Assembly: GCA_001314905.1 (NCBI GenBank) | Contig: LJZT01000035.1 | Span: 1 to 39,223, forward strand | Source of the DNA: Phormidium sp. OSCR | GTDB taxonomy: Bacteria > Cyanobacteriota > Cyanobacteriia > Cyanobacteriales > Geitlerinemataceae | Reading direction: 5' to 3' | DNA length: 39,223 nucleotides | In this document: piece after piece, positions 27,942 through 39,223 of the stretch | Layout of the letters: every line of letters begins with the position of its first letter | How positions within the stretch are numbered: position 1 is the stretch's first letter | Translations under genes and position numbers: made by a program | The notes under the pieces: generated by a model | Databases searched by the model: none | Told to the model about the DNA's origin: nothing | The model's input: the letters and a program-made list of their open reading frames with translations, nothing else

Positions 27942-29009
27942 TTAGAGGAATTGTTGTAAGTCGGAGTCCTCTTTTAAGGTTTTTAGAACCGATTTAATGT
28001 CTTGAGTGCGGTCTTTCTTGACAATGAGGGTGGCATCGCCATCGCGAACGACGACCACATCCTCTAGGCCAATGGTGACAATAAGTTCGTCGGGATTGCT
28101 GTTATAAAAAATACTATTTTGGCTATCTTGCCCAATATGGCGGCCGAGTTCGACGTTGCTGGAGTTGGGGCTGGTGTTTTCTGATCGCAGGCGATCGAGG
28201 GCGTTCCAATCGCCGAGATCGTCCCAGCCAAAGGAGACAGGAAGGACGGCGGCCCGTTGGGTTTTCTCCATCAGGGCATAGTCGATACTGATTTTGGTCA
28301 GGTTGGGATAGGCGTTAACGCCTTCTTGCTGAAGCTGTTGCATCAGTTCTGGGGCATATTGTTTGAGTTCTTCTAAGGCGACTCCTGCTTGGAAGATGAA
28401 AATGCCACTATTCCAGCTAAAGCGTCCGCTGGCCAGGAAGTTTTCGGCGGTGGGGCGATCGGGTTTTTCGGTGAAGCGGGCCACTTGGAAGGCGGCTAAG
28501 TCTTTGACGGTTCCCTGGGGTTCCCCTTGTTCAATGTAGCCGTAGCCGGTGGAGGGATAGGTGGGTTTAACCCCTAGGGTGACGATCGCCCCTTGTTTTT
28601 GGGCCACGTCAATGGCGGCGTGGAGGGTGTGGTGGAAGGCTTCGGGGGGATCAATCCAGTGATCGGCGGGGAAAAAGCCCACAACTGCGTCAGGGCCATG
28701 GCGTTGGCTAATTTCTAGAGTCGTCCAAGCCACGGCGGGGGCGGTGTCTCGGCCTTCGGGTTCGATGAGGAGATTGGCTTCGGGGAGTTCGGGTAACTGT
28801 TGACGAACTCCGTCGGCTAGATGGCTGGCGGTAATCACCCAGAGGTTCTCCCAGCCGTTAGCTAGGGGGAGTAGGCGATCGGCGGTGGCTTGCAAGAGGC
28901 TGCGATCGCTCCCATCGAGGCAGAGAAATTGTTTGGGGCGTTCCAGGCGACTCAGGGGCCAGAAGCGTTCGCCTTTACCACCGGCGAGAATCACAGGGGT
29001 GAAAACCAT
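27942..29009 (-). CDS. manC: Mannose-1-phosphate guanylyltransferase
   Basis: A 355-residue enzyme from ATG at 29009 (MVFTPVILAGGKGERFWP); the frame is open nine codons further upstream. It makes GDP-mannose for polysaccharides and glycolipids. Motifs: the nucleotide-binding loop ILAGGKGERFWPLSR, PKQFL, EPEGRDTAPAVAW, FPADHWI, FTEKPDRP and WNSGIF. It lacks the C-terminal isomerase domain of bifunctional ManC/AlgA, so it is the short guanylyltransferase. An STRR array starts 40 bases upstream of the start codon, in its leader or promoter. The vWA gene follows on the same strand. Confidence 0.92.
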   Translation of the reverse strand: MVFTPVILAGGKGERFWPLSRLERPKQFLCLDGSDRSLLQATADRLLPLANGWENLWVITASHLADGVRQQLPELPEANLLIEPEGRDTAPAVAWTTLEISQRHGPDAVVGFFPADHWIDPPEAFHHTLHAAIDVAQKQGAIVTLGVKPTYPSTGYGYIEQGEPQGTVKDLAAFQVARFTEKPDRPTAENFLASGRFSWNSGIFIFQAGVALEELKQYAPELMQQLQQEGVNAYPNLTKISIDYALMEKTQRAAVLPVSFGWDDLGDWNALDRLRSENTSPNSSNVELGRHIGQDSQNSIFYNSNPDELIVTIGLEDVVVVRDGDATLIVKKDRTQDIKSVLKTLKEDSDLQQFL

Positions 29010-29050
29010 AGGGGGCCTATTCGTGAATGAATGCACCTATGTTATAGCAA

Positions 29051-29249
29051 GAGGGAACAGGGAACAGGGAACAGGGGGAAGAAGGCAAGGGGCAAGAGGG
29101 GGAAGAAGGGAACAGGGAACAGGGGCAAGAGGCAAGAGGCAAGGGGCAAGAGGCAAGAGGGAGAAGAAGGGAACAGGGAACAGGGAACAGGGGCAAGAGG
29201 CAAGAGGCAAGGGGCAAGGGGCAAGGGGCAAGGGGCAAGGGGCAAGAGG
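29051..29249. repeat. Second heptanucleotide array (GGGAACA/GGCAAGA type)
   Basis: About 28 near-perfect 7-base units in blocks: GGGAACA repeats, then GGCAAGA and GGCAAGG repeats, interrupted by GAAGAA pieces. Both strands have long open frames through it only because seven is not a multiple of three and stops are absent from the unit. It separates divergent manC and the antenna gene. Same STRR class as the array at 15.4 kb but a different unit. The following 29250-29465 holds AT-rich upstream sequence with no gene. Confidence 0.9.
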
Positions 29250-29523: not shown

Positions 29524-30552
29524 ATGCAAACCTACGATAATCCCAAAGTCACCTATGACTGGTGGGCGGGAAATGCCCGATTTACCGATATGTCGGGCTT
29601 GTTTATCGCCGCTCATGTCGCCCAGGCGGCCCTGATTACCTTCTGGGCTGGAGCCTTTACCCTCTTTGAAATCTCTTGGTTTGACCCAACTCTCTCCATG
29701 GGAGAACAGGGGTTAATCCTTCTCCCCCACCTAGCCACCCTTGGCTGGGGTGTCGGCGACGGTGGACAGATTGTGGATACCTATCCCTACTTCGTCGTGG
29801 GGGCGATTCACCTGATTTCCTCCGCCGTCTTAGGAGCCGGGGCCTTGTTCCATACCTTCAAAGCCCCAGAAGACCTCAAAACCGCCTCAGGCCGTGCCAA
29901 ACGCTTCCATTTTGAATGGGATGACCCCAAACAGTTGGGTCTCATTTTGGGACATCATCTGCTCTTTTTAGGCGCAGGGGCCTTGCTGCTGGTGGGGAAA
30001 GCCATGTACTGGGGTGGACTCTATGATGCAGCGAGTCAAACCGTTCGCGTCGTCAGCGAACCCACCTTGAATCCCTTTGTGATTTATGGCTATCAAACCC
30101 ATTTCGCCAGTGTTAATAATTTGGAAGACCTGGTGGGGGGTCATGTTTATGTGGGCGTGATGCTGATTGCTGGGGGAATTTGGCATATCCTAGTTCCGCC
30201 GCTGAATTGGGCGAAAAAGGTGCTGATTTTTTCCGGGGAAGCGATTTTGTCCTACTCCTTGGGCGGGATTGCGTTAGCTGGATTTGTCGCCTCCTATTTC
30301 TGTGCCGTGAATACCTTGGCCTATCCGGTGGAGTTTTATGGCCCCGCCTTAGAGGTCAAACTTGGAATTACGCCTTACTTTGCCGATACCGCTGACTTAC
30401 CCTTCGGCACTCATACCGCTCGTTGCTGGTTAGCCAATGCCCATTTCTTCCTGTCCTTCTTCTTCCTACAAGGACATTTATGGCACGCCTTACGAGCCAT
30501 GGGTTTCGATTTTCGTCGGGTTGACAAGGCATTAAATTCCTTGGAAACCTAA
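29524..30552 (+). CDS. CP43-like chlorophyll-binding antenna protein (IsiA/Pcb family)
   Basis: A 342-residue, six-helix thylakoid protein. The start [20 protein letters not shown] and end [17 protein letters not shown] are those of the IsiA/Pcb family, which lacks the large lumenal loop of CP43. Chlorophyll-ligand histidines are visible ([41 protein letters not shown]). The middle ([26 protein letters not shown]) looks closer to Pcb-type members than to classical IsiA, so I leave the symbol open. Under iron limitation such proteins ring photosystem I or accompany photosystem II. Flavodoxin follows 450 bases downstream, as in isiAB operons, which supports an iron-stress role. Confidence 0.93.
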
Positions 30553-32202: not shown

Positions 32203-32415
32203 ATGCAAATTGCTGCGCGGTTTGGTCATAGAGTTCGCTCAGTTCGTAAACTGAGAGGATTCTCTCAGGAGCAACTTGCAGAACATTGCGGATTACATCG
32301 CACTTATATTGGTTCTGTGGAACGGGGGGAACGAAATATCACGTTGGTGAATGCACAAAAAATTGCTGAGGCCCTTTCTGTCTCATTATGTGACTTAGTT
32401 CAAGAGAATGAATGA
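32203..32415 (+). CDS. XRE-family controller (C) protein of the R-M system
   Basis: A 70-residue, all-helical DNA-binding protein. The helix-turn-helix spans SQEQLAEHCGLHRTYIGSVERG, and GERNITLVNAQKIAEALSV continues the five-helix fold. Size and sequence fit C proteins, which bind C-boxes to activate and later repress their own gene and the endonuclease gene, delaying restriction until the host DNA is methylated. Its stop overlaps the endonuclease start by eight bases (32408-32415), so the two are one transcription unit with translational coupling. The C-boxes upstream make the assignment firm. Confidence 0.92.
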   Translation: MQIAARFGHRVRSVRKLRGFSQEQLAEHCGLHRTYIGSVERGERNITLVNAQKIAEALSVSLCDLVQENE

Positions 32416-32956
32416 GGAGTTGTTGGATGGAATTTTAACCAATTATCAAAATTCCTTTATTGACAAGGTGTATGCAGAAGAAAATGATGAGCATGACCTT
32501 CTGATGGATGTCTTTAATCTATCACCTGACCTTAAGCGAGAAAATCGACAATATTGGGGTCGAGAATTGGGGATGTGTTGGCAGTTGCTGGTGACTGAAA
32601 TCTGTAAAATGAACTGTGATGACTTTGAGCCTGCTCTGAAATTTGGAAAAGATGAACCTTGTGATTTAGTAGTTGGACGTTATGCAATTGACACAAAATA
32701 TCGCATGGGTTCTGGGGATTCCGGGACGTTGAAAAAGTTTAAGCGTTATGGAGTTCAGCTCAAAAAGCAAGGCTATACCCCCATTTTGTTGATTTTGAGA
32801 GCCGATAATCTAAAGTCGGCGATTCAGGCTTGTCAAAAGGGGGGCTGGCAGTTGCATATCGGTGATGATTCGTTGAGTTTTTTGCAGGAGTTAACTGGAT
32901 TTGACCTCAGGAATTTCCTGGAGAGAAAAGTGGGAGCTTACCCTGTAAACCGCTAG
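32408..32956 (+). CDS. Type II restriction endonuclease (ApaLI-like)
   Basis: A 182-residue protein with a PD-(D/E)xK-type centre: CDLVVGRYAIDTKYR gives Asp followed by D-T-K on the next strand, then GDSGTLKKFKRYGVQLKKQGYTPILL. That segment resembles, from memory, ApaLI-type enzymes (EIKWRDATTDGDH, GYKPIRVM), including the fixed-spacing helix after the active site; the recognition site cannot be predicted. The N-terminal half (ENRQYWGRELGMCWQLL) is helical. It overlaps the controller gene at its start and the methyltransferase gene by 50 bases at its end in the convergent direction, so strong transcription of one may interfere with the other. Confidence 0.82.
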   Translation: MNEELLDGILTNYQNSFIDKVYAEENDEHDLLMDVFNLSPDLKRENRQYWGRELGMCWQLLVTEICKMNCDDFEPALKFGKDEPCDLVVGRYAIDTKYRMGSGDSGTLKKFKRYGVQLKKQGYTPILLILRADNLKSAIQACQKGGWQLHIGDDSLSFLQELTGFDLRNFLERKVGAYPVNR

Positions 32957-33860
32957 TGTTGTCTAGCCGCTTCTTGATGATTTCAATATAGTCAGGGACA
33001 ATCTCAATGCCAATAGAATGAATGCCGAACTCCTTGGCAGCAACAAGGGTTGTTCCTGACCCAGCGAAGGGGTCTAAAAGAACAGAGTCTGGGGTTCGGG
33101 GGGCGAAGATTTCTACTAATTTCCTCATTAGGGCAAGGGGTTTGACGGTACAGTGAATGTTAAAATTTTCACTTTTATCTCGGGGGATATTTTCTAAGAT
33201 GTTGGATTGAAACCCGCCCCATTCGTCTTGGGTGTAGAATAAGCCAGTTCCATACTCCATTAGGGTTTCTAGATAGTTGTTGACTAAGGGTTTTTGCAGG
33301 ACACAAATGGCTTCCCACTCGTTTCTTAGGCAACTATGCCAGCCTTGCCACTCCTCGGGATGGTCATAGCCTTTTTTCTGAAGCTGTTTTTGGATGTTGA
33401 CACCTTTGGGAATGCCACTAGAGCGTCGATATACGAGAATATCTCGGGCGTAAAATCCGGCTGACTCTAATGCGACTTGAACATGAGCGACGGTTCGGGT
33501 GCTATTAAAAACCAGCACAGTGGCACCGGGTTTGCAGATACGAAATAGCTCCGTTCCCCAGTCTAAACACCATTGTTGGTAATCGAGAATGTTTTGGCGA
33601 TTGCGCTCATACCAACGGCGATTGCGAACTCCTCCGGCTAAGCCACTCCCATAGGGAATGTTTTTGACTAAGGTTTTACTCTTTTTTTGCTTGGCTTTCT
33701 GGACTCGTCTTTGGATTTCTGTGTTGTCCCATTGATGTCCGATAAATTCGTAGTTATAGGGAGGGTCTGTGATACAGACTGAGATGGAGTCAGGTTCAAG
33801 CTGACTCATAACGTCGCAACAATCCCCTTGTCGGATTTGCTGGGTTGGTCGTTGGCTCAT
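32907..33860 (-). CDS. Beta-class DNA N6-adenine/N4-cytosine methyltransferase
   Basis: A 317-residue enzyme protecting the host against the adjacent endonuclease. Catalytic motif IV TDPPYN (31-36) precedes the S-adenosylmethionine motif LLDPFAGSGTT (261-271), the beta-class permutation. IPYGSGLAGG and IHCTVKPLALMRKLVEIF (motif X region) also fit. Start ATG at 33860. It lies 77 bases downstream of the STAND gene on the same strand, so its expression may depend on that promoter. Whether it makes m6A or m4C is not decidable from sequence alone. Confidence 0.92.
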   Translation of the reverse strand: MSQRPTQQIRQGDCCDVMSQLEPDSISVCITDPPYNYEFIGHQWDNTEIQRRVQKAKQKKSKTLVKNIPYGSGLAGGVRNRRWYERNRQNILDYQQWCLDWGTELFRICKPGATVLVFNSTRTVAHVQVALESAGFYARDILVYRRSSGIPKGVNIQKQLQKKGYDHPEEWQGWHSCLRNEWEAICVLQKPLVNNYLETLMEYGTGLFYTQDEWGGFQSNILENIPRDKSENFNIHCTVKPLALMRKLVEIFAPRTPDSVLLDPFAGSGTTLVAAKEFGIHSIGIEIVPDYIEIIKKRLDNTSGLQGKLPLFSPGNS

Positions 33861-33937: not shown

Positions 33938-36900
33938 TTAGTCGCTGGGGGAGGTTTCTGGTGGGGGGATGTTGCAGAGGGCTTGGTCGCCCTCGGTGAC
34001 GTTAGGATTAGAGGTGAGGTAGGGTCGCAACCAGTCACAGGCGCGATGGAGGAGTTCATCTAAAGTTTCCACTTTCCAAATTTTCACCGTTCCGTCCGAT
34101 GAAGCCGAGACCACCCTCGTTCCATCTCTATTAAACTCCGCACTATTGACCGGACCCGAATGAGCCTCAAAGGAGTGGAGAAGGTCTCCAGTGTCCACAT
34201 CCCATAGCTTCACGACTCCGTCCGATGAAGCCGAGACTACCTGAGTGCCATCCCCATTAAACTCCACACTATTGACCCCATGCGAGTGAGCCTCGATAGA
34301 GTAGAGGAGTTCCCCAGTGACCACATCCCACAGCTTCACCGTTCCGTCCATTGAAGCTGAGACCACCTGGGTGTCATCCCCGTTAAACTTGGCACTGAAG
34401 ACCCAATGAGCCTCCCATGTGTTGCGAAGACGGATATCTCGCAGAACCCTACTGAGGCTTTCAATGGGTCGCATCGTCCGATAGTTCCGGTTAGACGGGG
34501 TTGTCTGCTGCAACTCCCGAGCCGTTCGCGTTGCTGTTAACAGACCCTGTAACTCGTTATGCTCAAACTGTTGCAAGGCTGAACGACTATGACGCTCCAA
34601 TCGCGTAATTAACCGTGCCGTGTTCAACTCCCGATTTCCCCAAACCACAGCACCCAACGACACCGCTATAACGACGACCCCAACCGCGCTCAGCCAACGA
34701 GTCCGCCGCTTCACCTGAGTTTGCCGCTGTTCCAACTCCTCTAAGGTTCGCTCCGCCGCCAGCCGTTTACGCTGTTCCTCATGCAAACTGGCAATTAACT
34801 CCGACTGGCGGGATTCATAAATCAACTCCGCCAGATAATCATGCACCAACTGATAGCGTTGCGGTTCCCCCGGAATCACCACCACCAACCCCGAGGCCGT
34901 GAAAATTTCCAGGACTAAATCCAAAGCGTCCTGTAACGCCTGACCCTGGGGAGCCTGGGGAATCGGCTGTAAGTCCTGCCAGAGTTCCTCATAAGACCGT
35001 AGAGGTCGCCGGCGCCGTTCATCGGTGAGGAGGTACAAAACCCCATTGGCCAGGCGCTCTTGCTCGGCACCACAGGCTCGGACGATATCATCAAGATATC
35101 CCTGGACTAACTGCTGTTTGGGATGCTCTCCCAATGCCTCATAGGCAGACATCTCGCGAATCTGCTGAGACTCCAACTGAAAGCCGACGAGCTGAAGTTC
35201 GATGGGACGGACGGCTCCCGTCTCCTGGCTCAAATCCGCCACCAGGCGCGTTCTCAACTCTGCCTCTAAATGGGGAGCCAGTTTTGCTAATACCTGACTC
35301 GTCCGTTGCGGCGAGAGATTCCCCAATTTGTGCAACACCTGGCGGCTGAGAATATCCCGACCGATGCAGTCCATGGAGTCTAAGTCATTGCAGAGCAGCA
35401 ATTGACCGACATAATCCGTTCGCAGGGAAAACACCACTTTCAAGGCTCCCAACTGCTGGATATTGCTGCACAACCCACCGATAAACTCGAAAAACTCCTC
35501 ATGGTCTGGCTGGTTGGGGTTGGCGAAGAAAAACTCCTCAAACTGGTCAAAGACCAAAATCACCTGACAATGCTGCTTCTCCAAGGCCTGCAATTTGGCT
35601 GCAATCCGTTGCTGAGGTGACTCCTGGGATATCCCCGCCAGAGACTTTTTATGGCGTTGGCTGGTTTGGTCAATGGCGGCCTCTAGGGTCTCAGTCCAGG
35701 GTTGATAGAGTCGTACCAAAATGGGAACCCCCTCCAGTCCGCCGCTGAAGGTCTTTTCACGCAAGACGGGAAGTAAGCCAGCGTTGATGAGGGAGCTTTT
35801 GCCAACTCCAGACTGTCCGTGAATGACGAGAATCTTGTTCTGGGTTCCCGAGAGGCGGCCTTGCAAGTTGCGGACATCCTCTTCTCGTCCCGATTCTTGG
35901 ATTTCTGGGGGGAGATTGTCCAGGGAACAGCGTTGATAGAGAATCCCTTGCAGGCGACTGGCTCCCACAAAGGCTCGCTGACCGCCGTAGCGTTGCACTT
36001 GCCATTGCTGTTGCTGAATGGAGAAGGCGCGGCGATAGTCTTGGCGGTCGTGAAAATAAAACTGATGCAGCTGCTCTAAGGCGTTCAGCCAGAGGTTAGG
36101 GAAGGGGAAACTCTCTTGTTGGCACAGTTGCTCGTTCACTGCCGCCAGATGGTCGAAGCGTGCCGGGTTTGGGGAGGTTTCGGGATGGGTGATTTCGCGG
36201 GTGATTTCGCTTAAGCTACTGACCAGTTGCACCACGGCGGCGTTGGCGACGAGGTGGGCCAGGTCTGGCTCGGCGGCGGCTTGGAAGTGCTGCTGACTCT
36301 CTTGGAACTGGCGGTTTAGGGGGTGCAGGTCTGGATAATGGAGGTGGCTTTGCTCCTGTTCACTGCGCCAGAGAGGGAGGATGGCCTGCTGAAAGGCTAA
36401 CCAGCCGAGGCGTTTCTGACTGGTGGGGGTTGGAGGTGAGATGGTTTGCCAAAGGTTGGCTCCTTGGTTGAGCTGTTGTTCGGCTTGGGATAACTCTTGC
36501 TGGAGGAGATGCTGGTGACTTTGGATGATGGCCAGGTCGGCTTGGAGGCTGGGGGAGAGGTCGCGGTTGAGTTCGGTTTGAGCCAGGTCGAGTTCTCGCT
36601 GTTCGCTCTGGGAGAGGAGGGGTTGACTCCCTAGCCATTGTTCTGGAGAGGCTTGGGGAAGACGTTGGAAGAAGAGGTCTAAGAGATGGCGCAGTTCTTG
36701 CTCTAAGTCGTCTGGGGTGGGGTAGAAGCGTTTACTGGTGGCCCAACTGTGGAGGTCGTTGGCAAGGTTCAGCATCTCGGTGAGGCTGTTGTCGTCGAGC
36801 CAGATGGCCATGGGGAGGGGACAATCCCGGCGCAGGCGATCGCGGATTTGGTTACTATTGGCTAGAAACTGGCGTACGTCGGCCAGTTGGTTGAGTCCCA

Positions 36901-37168
36901 AGATTTGCACGCCTTCGGGGGAGGATGGCTCGATGGCTTGGACGGCTTGAGCCAGGTTTTGTGCATTTGGGGGGAGATGAACGGCTGTGAGTGAGAAGTG
37001 ATACTGGTCTTGGCAAATCTGGGTCAGGTCCTTAGACCAGCGTTCGCAGGCTTGGCCATAGTTACACCGCACCAGAATCAGTTTAAAGTGACCCCGCGAC
37101 AGGGCCATGGCCTGAGCGAGTTGTTGCAAGGTCTTCTGATTTTTGGCGGCGACATCAGCAGTCATCAT
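33938..37168 (-). CDS. iSTAND/nSTAND ATPase with three WD40 repeats
   Basis: A 1076-residue protein. Residues 1-145 (GHFKLILVRCNYGQACERW, PLPMAIWLDDNSL) look like an inactive P-loop (iSTAND-like) domain without Walker A; 180-330 is helical and coiled-coil. The STAND ATPase follows, with Walker A GQSGVGKSS (451-459) and Walker B VILVFDQFEEFF (536-547), then a winged-helix region ending ELIYESRQ, a coiled coil (LHEEQRKRLAAERTLEELEQ), one membrane helix (WLSAVGVVVIAVSLGAVVWG) and three WD40 blades, then a family-typical tail (LLHRACDWLRPYL). Related proteins sense invaders and oligomerise (Avs-like); here that is inference. The repeat part is short. It faces the AAA/DUF4276 pair divergently and lies upstream of the methyltransferase. 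Confidence 0.9.
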   Translation of the reverse strand: MMTADVAAKNQKTLQQLAQAMALSRGHFKLILVRCNYGQACERWSKDLTQICQDQYHFSLTAVHLPPNAQNLAQAVQAIEPSSPEGVQILGLNQLADVRQFLANSNQIRDRLRRDCPLPMAIWLDDNSLTEMLNLANDLHSWATSKRFYPTPDDLEQELRHLLDLFFQRLPQASPEQWLGSQPLLSQSEQRELDLAQTELNRDLSPSLQADLAIIQSHQHLLQQELSQAEQQLNQGANLWQTISPPTPTSQKRLGWLAFQQAILPLWRSEQEQSHLHYPDLHPLNRQFQESQQHFQAAAEPDLAHLVANAAVVQLVSSLSEITREITHPETSPNPARFDHLAAVNEQLCQQESFPFPNLWLNALEQLHQFYFHDRQDYRRAFSIQQQQWQVQRYGGQRAFVGASRLQGILYQRCSLDNLPPEIQESGREEDVRNLQGRLSGTQNKILVIHGQSGVGKSSLINAGLLPVLREKTFSGGLEGVPILVRLYQPWTETLEAAIDQTSQRHKKSLAGISQESPQQRIAAKLQALEKQHCQVILVFDQFEEFFFANPNQPDHEEFFEFIGGLCSNIQQLGALKVVFSLRTDYVGQLLLCNDLDSMDCIGRDILSRQVLHKLGNLSPQRTSQVLAKLAPHLEAELRTRLVADLSQETGAVRPIELQLVGFQLESQQIREMSAYEALGEHPKQQLVQGYLDDIVRACGAEQERLANGVLYLLTDERRRRPLRSYEELWQDLQPIPQAPQGQALQDALDLVLEIFTASGLVVVIPGEPQRYQLVHDYLAELIYESRQSELIASLHEEQRKRLAAERTLEELEQRQTQVKRRTRWLSAVGVVVIAVSLGAVVWGNRELNTARLITRLERHSRSALQQFEHNELQGLLTATRTARELQQTTPSNRNYRTMRPIESLSRVLRDIRLRNTWEAHWVFSAKFNGDDTQVVSASMDGTVKLWDVVTGELLYSIEAHSHGVNSVEFNGDGTQVVSASSDGVVKLWDVDTGDLLHSFEAHSGPVNSAEFNRDGTRVVSASSDGTVKIWKVETLDELLHRACDWLRPYLTSNPNVTEGDQALCNIPPPETSPSD
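34070..34400 (-). repeat. Three near-identical 126-base WD40 units
   Basis: Inside the STAND gene, units of 42 residues share VVSASxDGxVKxWxV and similar blade sequences, with long runs of identical DNA among copies. A closed propeller needs about seven blades, so the array is short and looks freshly duplicated or contracted. Confidence 0.85.
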
Positions 37169-37334: not shown

Positions 37335-38531
37335 ATGTCTCAACAGTCGGTTCCTCGAATTGAATACCTCAGAGTTCAGAACTATCGTGCTTTACATGAC
37401 CTTGAACTGAAAAACATCACGCCCCTTACCGCTTTTCTAGGAGCCAACGGAAGCGGAAAATCGACAATATTTGATGTTTTTGCGTTCCTCTCAGAATGCT
37501 TTACGGAAAGTCTCAGAAAAGCTTGGGATAAACGAGGTAGATTTCGAGAACTTCGCACCCGAGGGCAAGAGGGATGTATTGTCATCGAACTCAAATATCG
37601 AGAAACATCTGAATCTCCCCTAATCACCTATCATCTCTCTATTGATGAAGAAAATAATCGTCCCTACGTAGCAAAAGAATGGTTACATTGGCGACGAGGA
37701 CGAACAGGCGCACCCTTCCGCTTTCTCGACTTTAAAAATGGTGCAGGAGACGTCATTAGCGGGGAAATGCCTGATGAAGAAGACGAACGCATCACCGAAG
37801 AATTAGAATCCCCTGAACTTTTGGCTGTGAATACCCTAGGGCAATTTGCGAAACATCCCCGTGTTAGTGCTTTACGTCGCTTTATCACGGGTTGGTATCT
37901 CTCTTACCTCACGGCAGACCATGCCCGCACTATCCCAGAAGCCGGGGTACAAGAACGACTTTCACCAACCGGAGATAATTTACCAAATGTTATGCAATAT
38001 CTTAAGGAAGAACATCCTGATAGATTGGATAGCATCTTAAGAACTTTGTCAAGACGAATCCCGAAACTTGAGAAAGTAGAAGCTTCAATTATGCAAGATG
38101 GTAGGCTATTACTACAGATAAAAGATGCTCCATTTAATCAGCCCATTTTGGCTAAATTTGCCTCAGATGGAACATTAAAAATGTTGGCTTACTTAACCGT
38201 GTTATATGACCCAGACCCACCTCAACTGATTGGGGTGGAAGAACCTGAAAATCATTTACATCCTCGCTTACTTCCTGAACTGGCTGAAGAATGCCGTGCT
38301 GCTTCGACTCACACTCAGCTGATGGTCACAACCCACTCTCCCTTTTTTGTTGATGGGTTAAGGCCAGAAGAACTCTGGGTTTTATATCGAGATCAAAATG
38401 GATTTACGCAAGCAAAACGAACTGCTGATATGCAAGGGGTTAAAGAATTTATGGAACATGGCGCATTGCTGGGGTCTTTATGGATGGAAGATTTCTTTGA
38501 GGCCGGAAACCCCCTAAAAGAAAACCATTAA
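37335..38531 (+). CDS. AAA_21-type SMC/ABC-like ATPase
   Basis: A 398-residue ATPase starting [20 protein letters not shown]. Walker [10 protein letters not shown] (36-44); signature region [13 protein letters not shown]; Walker [14 protein letters not shown]; switch TTHSPFF. This is the AAA_21/AAA_15 layout of OLD-like ATPases, RloA and PARIS AriA, but the TOPRIM part is encoded separately by the next gene, 16 bases after the stop. No membrane segment. Codon use is more AT-rich than the housekeeping genes, though less than the OLD-like gene at 2.6 kb. It is divergent from the STAND gene across 166 bases, which should hold both promoters. Confidence 0.9.
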
Positions 38532-38547
38532 ACTATAAACTTGGTTG

Positions 38548-39162
38548 ATGAGCGATTCTTTTTTACATCTTGAATTTTTACTTGAAGAACCCTCTTTAGA
38601 AGAAGCTTTGAGCTATATTCTTCCCAAGATATTGAGAAATAAAGCAACATTTAGAACTCATGCGTTTAGAGGTAAAACAGACTTAATTAGAAAATTACCT
38701 GGTCGCTTAAAAGGTTATTCAGCATGGCTACCTGAAAACTATAAAATCATTGTCCTGATTGATGAAGATAGAGAAGATTGTCAACAGTTAAAGCAGCAAC
38801 TTGAAGCTATAGCCCAATCAGCCGGATTGACCACAAAATCATCTAGTCCTTCTGACAAGGGTTATCAAGTTATTAATCGCATTGTTATTGAAGAACTTGA
38901 GGCGTGGTTTTTTGGGGACGTAGATGCAATTTGTCAGGCTTATCCAAAAGTATCTCCGAACCTAGCGAATCAAGCTAGATATCGAGACCCTGACGAAATC
39001 CAAGGCGGAACGTGGGAAGCTTTAGAACGGGTACTAAAAAGAGCCGGTTATCATAGCGGAGGCTTAGAAAAATTTAGAGCAGCAAGGGAAATTGCTCCCT
39101 ACATGAACCCCTCTATGAACCGTTCTAGTACAGCTTGGCAGAAATCAACCAAGTATTTATGA
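38548..39162 (+). CDS. DUF4276 family protein (TOPRIM-like), partner of the ATPase
   Basis: A 204-residue protein from ATG at 38548. Residues LEFLLEEPSLEEAL supply an N-terminal Glu, IIVLIDEDREDC a DxD-like strand end, and NRIVIEELEAWFFGD is the hallmark of DUF4276. The fold is thought to be TOPRIM-like, so the pair would be a split version of the ATPase-TOPRIM arrangement. The C-terminus (NRSSTAWQKSTKYL) differs from the SFQVF-type ending usual in the family, as far as I remember, so a small frameshift near 39120 cannot be excluded. Start and reading frame otherwise fit. It is co-transcribed with the ATPase. Confidence 0.82.
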   Translation: MSDSFLHLEFLLEEPSLEEALSYILPKILRNKATFRTHAFRGKTDLIRKLPGRLKGYSAWLPENYKIIVLIDEDREDCQQLKQQLEAIAQSAGLTTKSSSPSDKGYQVINRIVIEELEAWFFGDVDAICQAYPKVSPNLANQARYRDPDEIQGGTWEALERVLKRAGYHSGGLEKFRAAREIAPYMNPSMNRSSTAWQKSTKYL

Positions 39163-39223
39163 GGTCAGAGGCTTACCGGTGTAATTCCACTTAAAGGGCT
39201 TAGCCATAGTGCGATTGAAGTAC

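Follow-up and report, generated by a model that had tools for sequence, protein, structure and literature searches.

The rlo genes are linked to type I restriction–modification (R–M) loci. PrrC, a single protein of a different type, is likewise an effector linked to a type I R–M enzyme. That enzyme keeps it silent, and a phage anti-restriction factor turns it on (PMC2610378). In PARIS, genes for an OLD-type ABC ATPase (AriA) and a TOPRIM protein (AriB) lie side by side, and the TOPRIM protein AriB is described as cleaving tRNA (PMC12409363). ABC ATPase and TOPRIM are also combined in OLD proteins of classes 1 and 2 (Gabija GajA), and those of class 2 are described as DNA nucleases (PMC10568477). 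WonAB joins an OLD-ABC ATPase to a nuclease of another fold and shuts translation down, the ATPase being needed for toxicity (PMC12137116). Pairing of OLD-ABC ATPases with varied nucleases is also reported in a survey of BREX (PMC12839542).

A further candidate of this kind, HEC-01 ('Hma-embedded candidate'), is catalogued in PADLOC-DB 2.0. The available parts of the PADLOC 2021 paper describe Hma and do not describe HEC. HEC-01 is named among the systems predicted in Desulfovibrio piger (PMC12724379), and an available section of PMC12988326 credits the preprint defining the HECs with antiviral activity for several of them, including HEC-06, HEC-01 not being specified there. A literature search found no experiment on HEC-01 itself.

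The locus analysed here belongs to this family. The window, that is the whole stretch of 39,223 bases under study, is an entire contig (C53) of a genome of 4.69 Mb in 187 contigs; hence sequence downstream of the second gene of the pair is out of view. The relevant features are as follows.

32408..32956, + strand: possible type II restriction enzyme, overlapping the methylase gene and convergent with it (PADLOC REase_II, 1.6e-6, weak)
32907..33860, - strand: N6/N4 DNA methylase, neighbour (Pfam, PADLOC)
33938..37168, - strand: nSTAND1 ATPase with WD40 repeats, 1076 aa, divergent neighbour (ORF, Pfam)
37335..38531, + strand: gene A, OLD/Rad50-type ABC ATPase, 398 aa, complete (Pfam, PADLOC, alignments, model)
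38548..39128, + strand: gene B, surviving part, DUF4276 with a predicted TOPRIM-type fold (Pfam, PADLOC, alignments, fold of a relative)
39125..39223, strand not assigned: end of a presumed element of IS630 type (DDE_3 transposase) that interrupts B at a CTAG (repeats, homology break)

The earlier note had described A and B as two genes 16 bases apart, and this holds: the ORFs 37335-38531 and 38548-39162 are adjacent on the + strand, with Pfam AAA_21 and DUF4276 matches. The B ORF runs from the ATG at 38548 to 39162 (204 residues), with a possible alternative start at a TTG 3 bases before this ATG. Protein A matches AAA_21 at 2e-29, as well as AAA_15 and RecF/SMC-type families, and DUF4276 is the sole Pfam match of B (7.9e-31). 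As AAA_21 and DUF4276 score far over the Pfam cut-offs, chance is excluded. Among PADLOC profiles, A is best matched by HEC-01A (PDLC04182; 1.8e-176, residues 7-392 of 398), and B by HEC-01B (PDLC04202; 3.1e-88), in both cases by a wide margin. The match to B covers profile positions 1-188 of 204 and ends there because the gene end is gone. In another PADLOC profile pair, PDLC04143/04144, the A and B labels are swapped. On these profile matches, the window pair is a member of the catalogued HEC-01 candidate family. The pairing is thus not new, and the description of a little-characterised defence pair stands as to the reality of the pair but must be amended, since PADLOC already lists it. DUF4276 is matched at four sites in the window genome, of which three exceed the Pfam cut-off and the fourth is weak; at each of them (L007-L010) an A-like gene lies directly upstream.

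Protein A has the motifs of its class. The alignment places them at residues 36-44, 277-280 (SDGT), 302-303 (EE) and 332-335 (TTHS), which are the Walker motif, the signature, Walker B and the H-loop, respectively, and their key residues are invariant or almost so among relatives. Among the folds nearest to the A model (pLDDT 84.1) are the heads of SMC and Rad50 proteins as well as PtuA, known from Septu and retrons (Z 18-20, PtuA up to 19.8). Between the window and an intact relative in Geitlerinema sp. P-1104 (locus L083), dN/dS by the Nei-Gojobori method (own script) is 0.062 at dS 0.51 for A and 0.172 at dS 0.58 for B. Both genes are therefore under strong purifying selection.

For B, the fold was modelled on the intact L083 protein, which is 82% identical to the window protein. 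The AlphaFold2 model (61 sequences; pLDDT 88.2, pTM 0.84) is built as strand-helix-strand-helix-strand-helix followed by a helical part. Seven residues, E13, D72, D74, E116, E118, W120 and D124, are invariant in the 61 sequences, and E13, D72 and D74 have identical numbers in the window and L083 proteins. TOPRIM domains have conserved acidic residues just past their first and third strands; in the model, E13 directly follows strand 7-12 and the DxD motif (D72, D74) follows strand 66-71, which are strands 1 and 3. When the best 1000 Foldseek chains were realigned with VIA-align, the top match was 6njx (Z 10.0, 4.2 A, 170 residues aligned), which together with 6njw and 6njv represents one OLD C-terminal region (Z 9.6-10.0). 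A second OLD protein (6nk8, Z 9.9) and the uncharacterised entry 2p62 (Z 9.8) score similarly. PARIS 8ux9_A, read as AriB because chain B is AriA, follows at Z 8.5, and the next row is at 6.6. The top matches align 166-177 residues.

Z values of 7-8 can be background level in VIA-align, so the TOPRIM reading is based on the agreement of fold, coverage and motif position. Foldseek alone gave no match in the PDB at E <= 0.001 for this model, and TMq never exceeded 0.32 among the 50 matches listed. A search of PDB sequences with the B profile gave a designed protein as best match (E 0.014), and comparison with the DUF4435 and RloB profiles gave alignments that are in register at E 0.007-0.0085 and a probability of ~5%, which is not significant. 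Collectively, the model supports a TOPRIM-type fold for B with its acidic residues in place. The structural comparison that the earlier note had suggested, run on the 82%-identical relative, thus points to OLD and AriB, and the idea of a split ATPase–TOPRIM module is borne out by these matches and by the near-constant adjacency of A and B.

Resemblance to the described systems is graded. The likeness to PARIS lies in the adjacent genes of an OLD-type ABC ATPase and a TOPRIM protein and in the match of the L083 B model to AriB, but window B is a DUF4276 protein with no DUF4435 match at E <= 0.001, and the match of A to HEC-01A far exceeds that to AriA (1.4e-28). Triggering by Ocr-type proteins is a further hallmark of PARIS. 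Like AbiL and RloA–RloB, the pair has an ATPase (AbiLi profile, 3e-25) followed by a small effector, but window B lacks a match to RloB (PF13707) at E <= 0.001. The parallel to PARIS and AbiL with another second subunit, as proposed before, is thereby supported. OLD proteins of class 2 provide in their TOPRIM domains the best structural matches of the L083 B model, but classes 1-3 hold in one chain what the window has in two separate ORFs. A UvrD-like helicase, as in Gabija, is absent among the matches listed for the eight window proteins scanned, the region downstream of B being out of view. The MADS system differs too, as window A reaches 113 bits against an NCBIfam MAD3 cut-off of 420. Elsewhere in the window genome, on contig C45 (15467-15979; L254), lies a divergent gene with VEG, DAD and ETW motifs. 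Its DUF4276 and RloB scores are weak and below both cut-offs; it may be a link between the two families.

We favour, with moderate confidence, the view that A–B is an ATPase-gated TOPRIM nuclease module of the HEC-01 family that aborts infection. For this module we infer nuclease activity, target, trigger and defence function alike. The OLD/Rad50-type ABC ATPase A would act as sensor and gate, and B as a metal-dependent nuclease effector. A phage-derived signal would reach A, probably a dimer with ATP bound, which would activate or release B. B would then cut a nucleic acid needed by the cell, more likely tRNA than DNA, and infection would abort. It is somewhat unlikely that B instead nicks or degrades phage or damaged DNA rather than RNA, in the manner of OLD or Gabija, with A gating by ATP or DNA ends. 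Such a role would suit the best structural matches of B, the TOPRIM domains of class 2 OLD proteins, which are described as DNA nucleases (PMC10568477), as well as the fold of A, which is close to the DNA-acting heads of Rad50 and SMC proteins. Yet the nearest relative split into two genes is PARIS, where AriB cleaves tRNA (PMC12409363).

The window copy itself is counted against the defence model, as it is possibly dead. An intact second gene of 204 residues, as first described, does not survive scrutiny: from ~39125 the end of B is replaced by that of a mobile element. Compared with the copy in another genome of the genus (G038), DNA identity is 97.5% over 37396-39128 and stops abruptly at 39128. 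The segment 39125-39223, which starts with CTAG and reaches the contig end, recurs at 100% identity over 98-99 bases elsewhere in this genome, where contigs C12 and C177 both carry it at their right-hand ends. Three further genomes of the genus have related element ends, at 78-82% identity. One of these related ends, in G080 (L265), adjoins an ORF with a DDE_3 transposase domain, and a similar ORF was seen by eye beside the element end at L264. An element with this transposase we take to be of the IS630-type family. The final ~10 codons of the 204-aa ORF and its stop (39160-39162) are part of this element.

Window B thereby lacks the C-terminal helix (residues 194-210 in the intact L083 protein), which bears an NxSxxF motif. 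Among the relatives listed, all 78 whose B ORF is 195 aa or longer have this motif; by pattern, 62 show N.S.SFQ, and the remaining 16, read at their C-termini, keep N.S..F. Since the element took this conserved helix, the window copy is, to judge from its sequence, probably inactive. That the 204-aa protein still works with its new tail, the truncation being harmless, is unlikely: the reading frame does continue for ~10 codons past the junction, and the E/DxD region is whole, but the missing helix bears the motif kept by every full-length relative listed and is included in the alignment to OLD TOPRIM domains, which extends to residue 211 of the model.

Damage takes another form in G038, where B is whole and two tandem duplications of ~70 bases each disrupt the reading frame of A close to its 5′ end, leaving a long ORF that begins at an internal TTG (364 aa). 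In L083 the pair is intact. Another genome of the genus, G148, appears to be this same P-1104 record, as the A, B and following ORFs listed from the two agree in length and in the 90 N-terminal residues shown. A copy at 82-100% identity occurs in three of the seven genomes of the genus, and two of the three are damaged, in different genes. Copies of B or of A–B that are split, shortened or separated were also seen at L103, L105, L158, L099, L033 and L024. Damage to the module may be common, as for costly systems.

The association of A with B extends far beyond these genomes. A scan of genome contigs found at least 451 relatives; the best 80, many of them metagenome-assembled, were analysed together with two viral-contig loci with a B match, which makes 82 loci. 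A directly precedes B, in the same orientation, in 80 of them, with a spacing from ORF overlap to 218 bases, and the two remaining matches start <140 bases from a contig end. Seventeen phylum names, one of them archaeal, stand on the tree rows of this same set (best 80 of at least 451, plus the two viral loci). In a broader Pfam DUF4276 set, searched with an A profile to which five A-type genes of those same genomes had been added, an A-like ORF is found directly upstream in 31 of 33 loci, four of them from the window genome. The two unpaired loci are L024, with only a distant A-like piece, and L033, where B is broken and A missing. With window B as query at 1e-5, 10 of 72,556 plasmid records matched; phage records gave no match at this threshold, which distant subfamilies would escape. 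A homologous A–B pair (SGL_RS00110-00115) is carried by plasmid pSYSM of Synechocystis PCC 6803.

Plasmid carriage invites a different account, in which A–B would be a toxin–antitoxin or selfish stabilisation module of plasmids and R–M operons without dedicated phage sensing. The pair is indeed close to toxin–antitoxin genes on pSYSM, and beside DUF4433 and macro-domain genes in a Meiothermus R–M operon. Such an account is nevertheless very unlikely, as A is a 400-residue ATPase with conserved motifs and not a small antitoxin, and the comparable ATPase of WonAB is required for toxicity instead of neutralising it (PMC12137116).

In the window itself, the surroundings only partly resemble the R–M system plus STAND ATPase proposed earlier. 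The nSTAND1-WD40 gene and the methylase are confirmed, but the restriction enzyme amounts to a weak PADLOC hit, ORF 32408-32956 having no Pfam or NCBIfam match. The nSTAND1-WD40 gene also neighbours the pair in G038, there as two ORFs. In the window this gene has a 126-base tandem repeat in its WD40 part (34083-34408, 2.6 copies). The methylase and the weakly matching ORF are located between this gene and a flavodoxin gene in the window. At G038 (L065) the flavodoxin gene is close to the STAND gene, with the methylase and the candidate restriction enzyme absent between them; thus, the methylase region may be a recent insertion here, or was lost in G038. The region upstream of the L083 pair, partly masked, contains an antisense ORF like one within the window STAND gene. 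Downstream of B, G038 and L083 have in common a 449-aa protein with no Pfam match and, by eye, an AroQ-like gene. Farther away in the window, dense short tandem repeats of the AGGGAAC/AGGGGCA type (29052-29249; periods of 7, 14, 21, 33 and 61 bases) are flanked by genes for a mannose-1-phosphate guanylyltransferase-like protein (27942-29036, identified by eye) and for an IsiA-like protein of the PSII family (29524-30552).

Enrichment near defence genes, suggested earlier as a check, gave a divided answer. In cyanobacteria, 30 DUF4276 loci were compared with a control of 133 ORFs, drawn from 34 random positions across 17 contigs. The set covered 114 of 116 neighbour ORFs (L066:6230-6679 and L167:6673-7950, an A homologue, were left out) and included L057 and L077, whose genomes are without control. 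The Pfam and PADLOC results, 25 families listed and none per protein, did not separate neighbours from random loci: R–M genes occur near the pairs, and the controls show type I-D CRISPR genes, AriA/HEC-01A-like ATPases and candidate systems. A wider comparison of near and far genes, made on 30 loci of at least 20 kb with exclusion of ORFs that have masked residues or at least 1500 aa, is more telling. HSDR_N and Methylase_S head the list of near genes (5/120 each), and the REase_I and Specificity_I profiles match 5/120 near genes each. Among the 99 far genes, PbeC and DndD account for two genes each, and no REase_I is found among the 25 of 69 families listed. In the wider set, some pairs lie inside type I R–M loci, whereas the cyanobacterial listings gave no clear sign of enrichment.

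This embedding was followed with an HsdR profile (five seeds) and an HsdS profile (four seeds) run over all 82 loci. In 13 of the 82 (best 80 of at least 451 relatives plus two viral loci), an HsdR gene follows B in the same orientation and starts <1 kb away. Five of the 13 gave seeds and eight were found with them. HsdR starts within 74 bases of B in 12 of the 13, overlapping B in two; in L150 it lies 990 bases past B, with one ORF in between. HsdS is found upstream in 12 of the 13, on the same strand at 1 to 3,069 bases, and one further locus has HsdS only. The sole HsdR match elsewhere in the 82 loci is a fragment 3.7 kb upstream (L148). Since contigs are short, the number is to be read as at least 13. 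HsdR in L131 and HsdS in L115, L126, L131 and L150 were verified with Pfam, and the annotation of a Meiothermus taiwanensis plasmid gives, in order, subunit S, DUF4433, macro domain, AAA ATPase, DUF4276 and type I subunit R. In some distant relatives, therefore, the pair is located inside type I R–M operons, between hsdS and hsdR. At four loci (L131, L150, L153 and L269), extra effectors are seen between hsdS and the pair, namely TIR/SEFIR, Schlafen AlbA_2 and DUF4433 with a macro domain; it is as if the hsdS–hsdR gap were a slot for exchangeable modules.

On a quick A tree (81 rows, 8 unscored), the embedded state requires seven changes and is found in six separate parts of the tree (Elusimicrobiota, Caldifarciminota, Methanobacteriota, Thermodesulfobacteriota, Poribacteria and Cyanobacteriota), many deep branches being weak. 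The order of genes suggests that A–B may be regulated by HsdRMS, and the hsd-embedded versions may sense that the type I restriction enzyme is being interfered with. The window left out, 59 of 72 scored loci have no hsdR downstream, so that guarding of restriction is not the full account. The window genome has one HSDR_N match, on another contig (31.8 bits, over the cut-off). It is tempting to propose, although on balance this is doubtful, that PrrC and PARIS are joined by a third kind of restriction guard, the TOPRIM-based DUF4276 pairs. In the order hsdS-A-B-hsdR, the ATPase would monitor the type I enzyme and phage anti-restriction would free the nuclease; entry into such operons would have occurred about six times, in bacteria and an archaeon, and solitary copies like that of the window, repeatedly disabled, would watch another signal.

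DUF4276 (PF14103) is widespread: 75 of 148 genomes from this order have a match, which in 67 of them exceeds the Pfam cut-off. Yet the term is absent from the main texts of the literature searched, and the papers listed on hsdR-linked effectors do not name it in their titles or opening abstract lines. The recurring placement in type I R–M operons is the part most worth following. With DUF4276 as a probable TOPRIM protein, tied to an ATPase and in part found in R–M operons, the question becomes whether the pair senses the loss of restriction, and the homologous pair on pSYSM would make this question testable in a model strain, Synechocystis PCC 6803.
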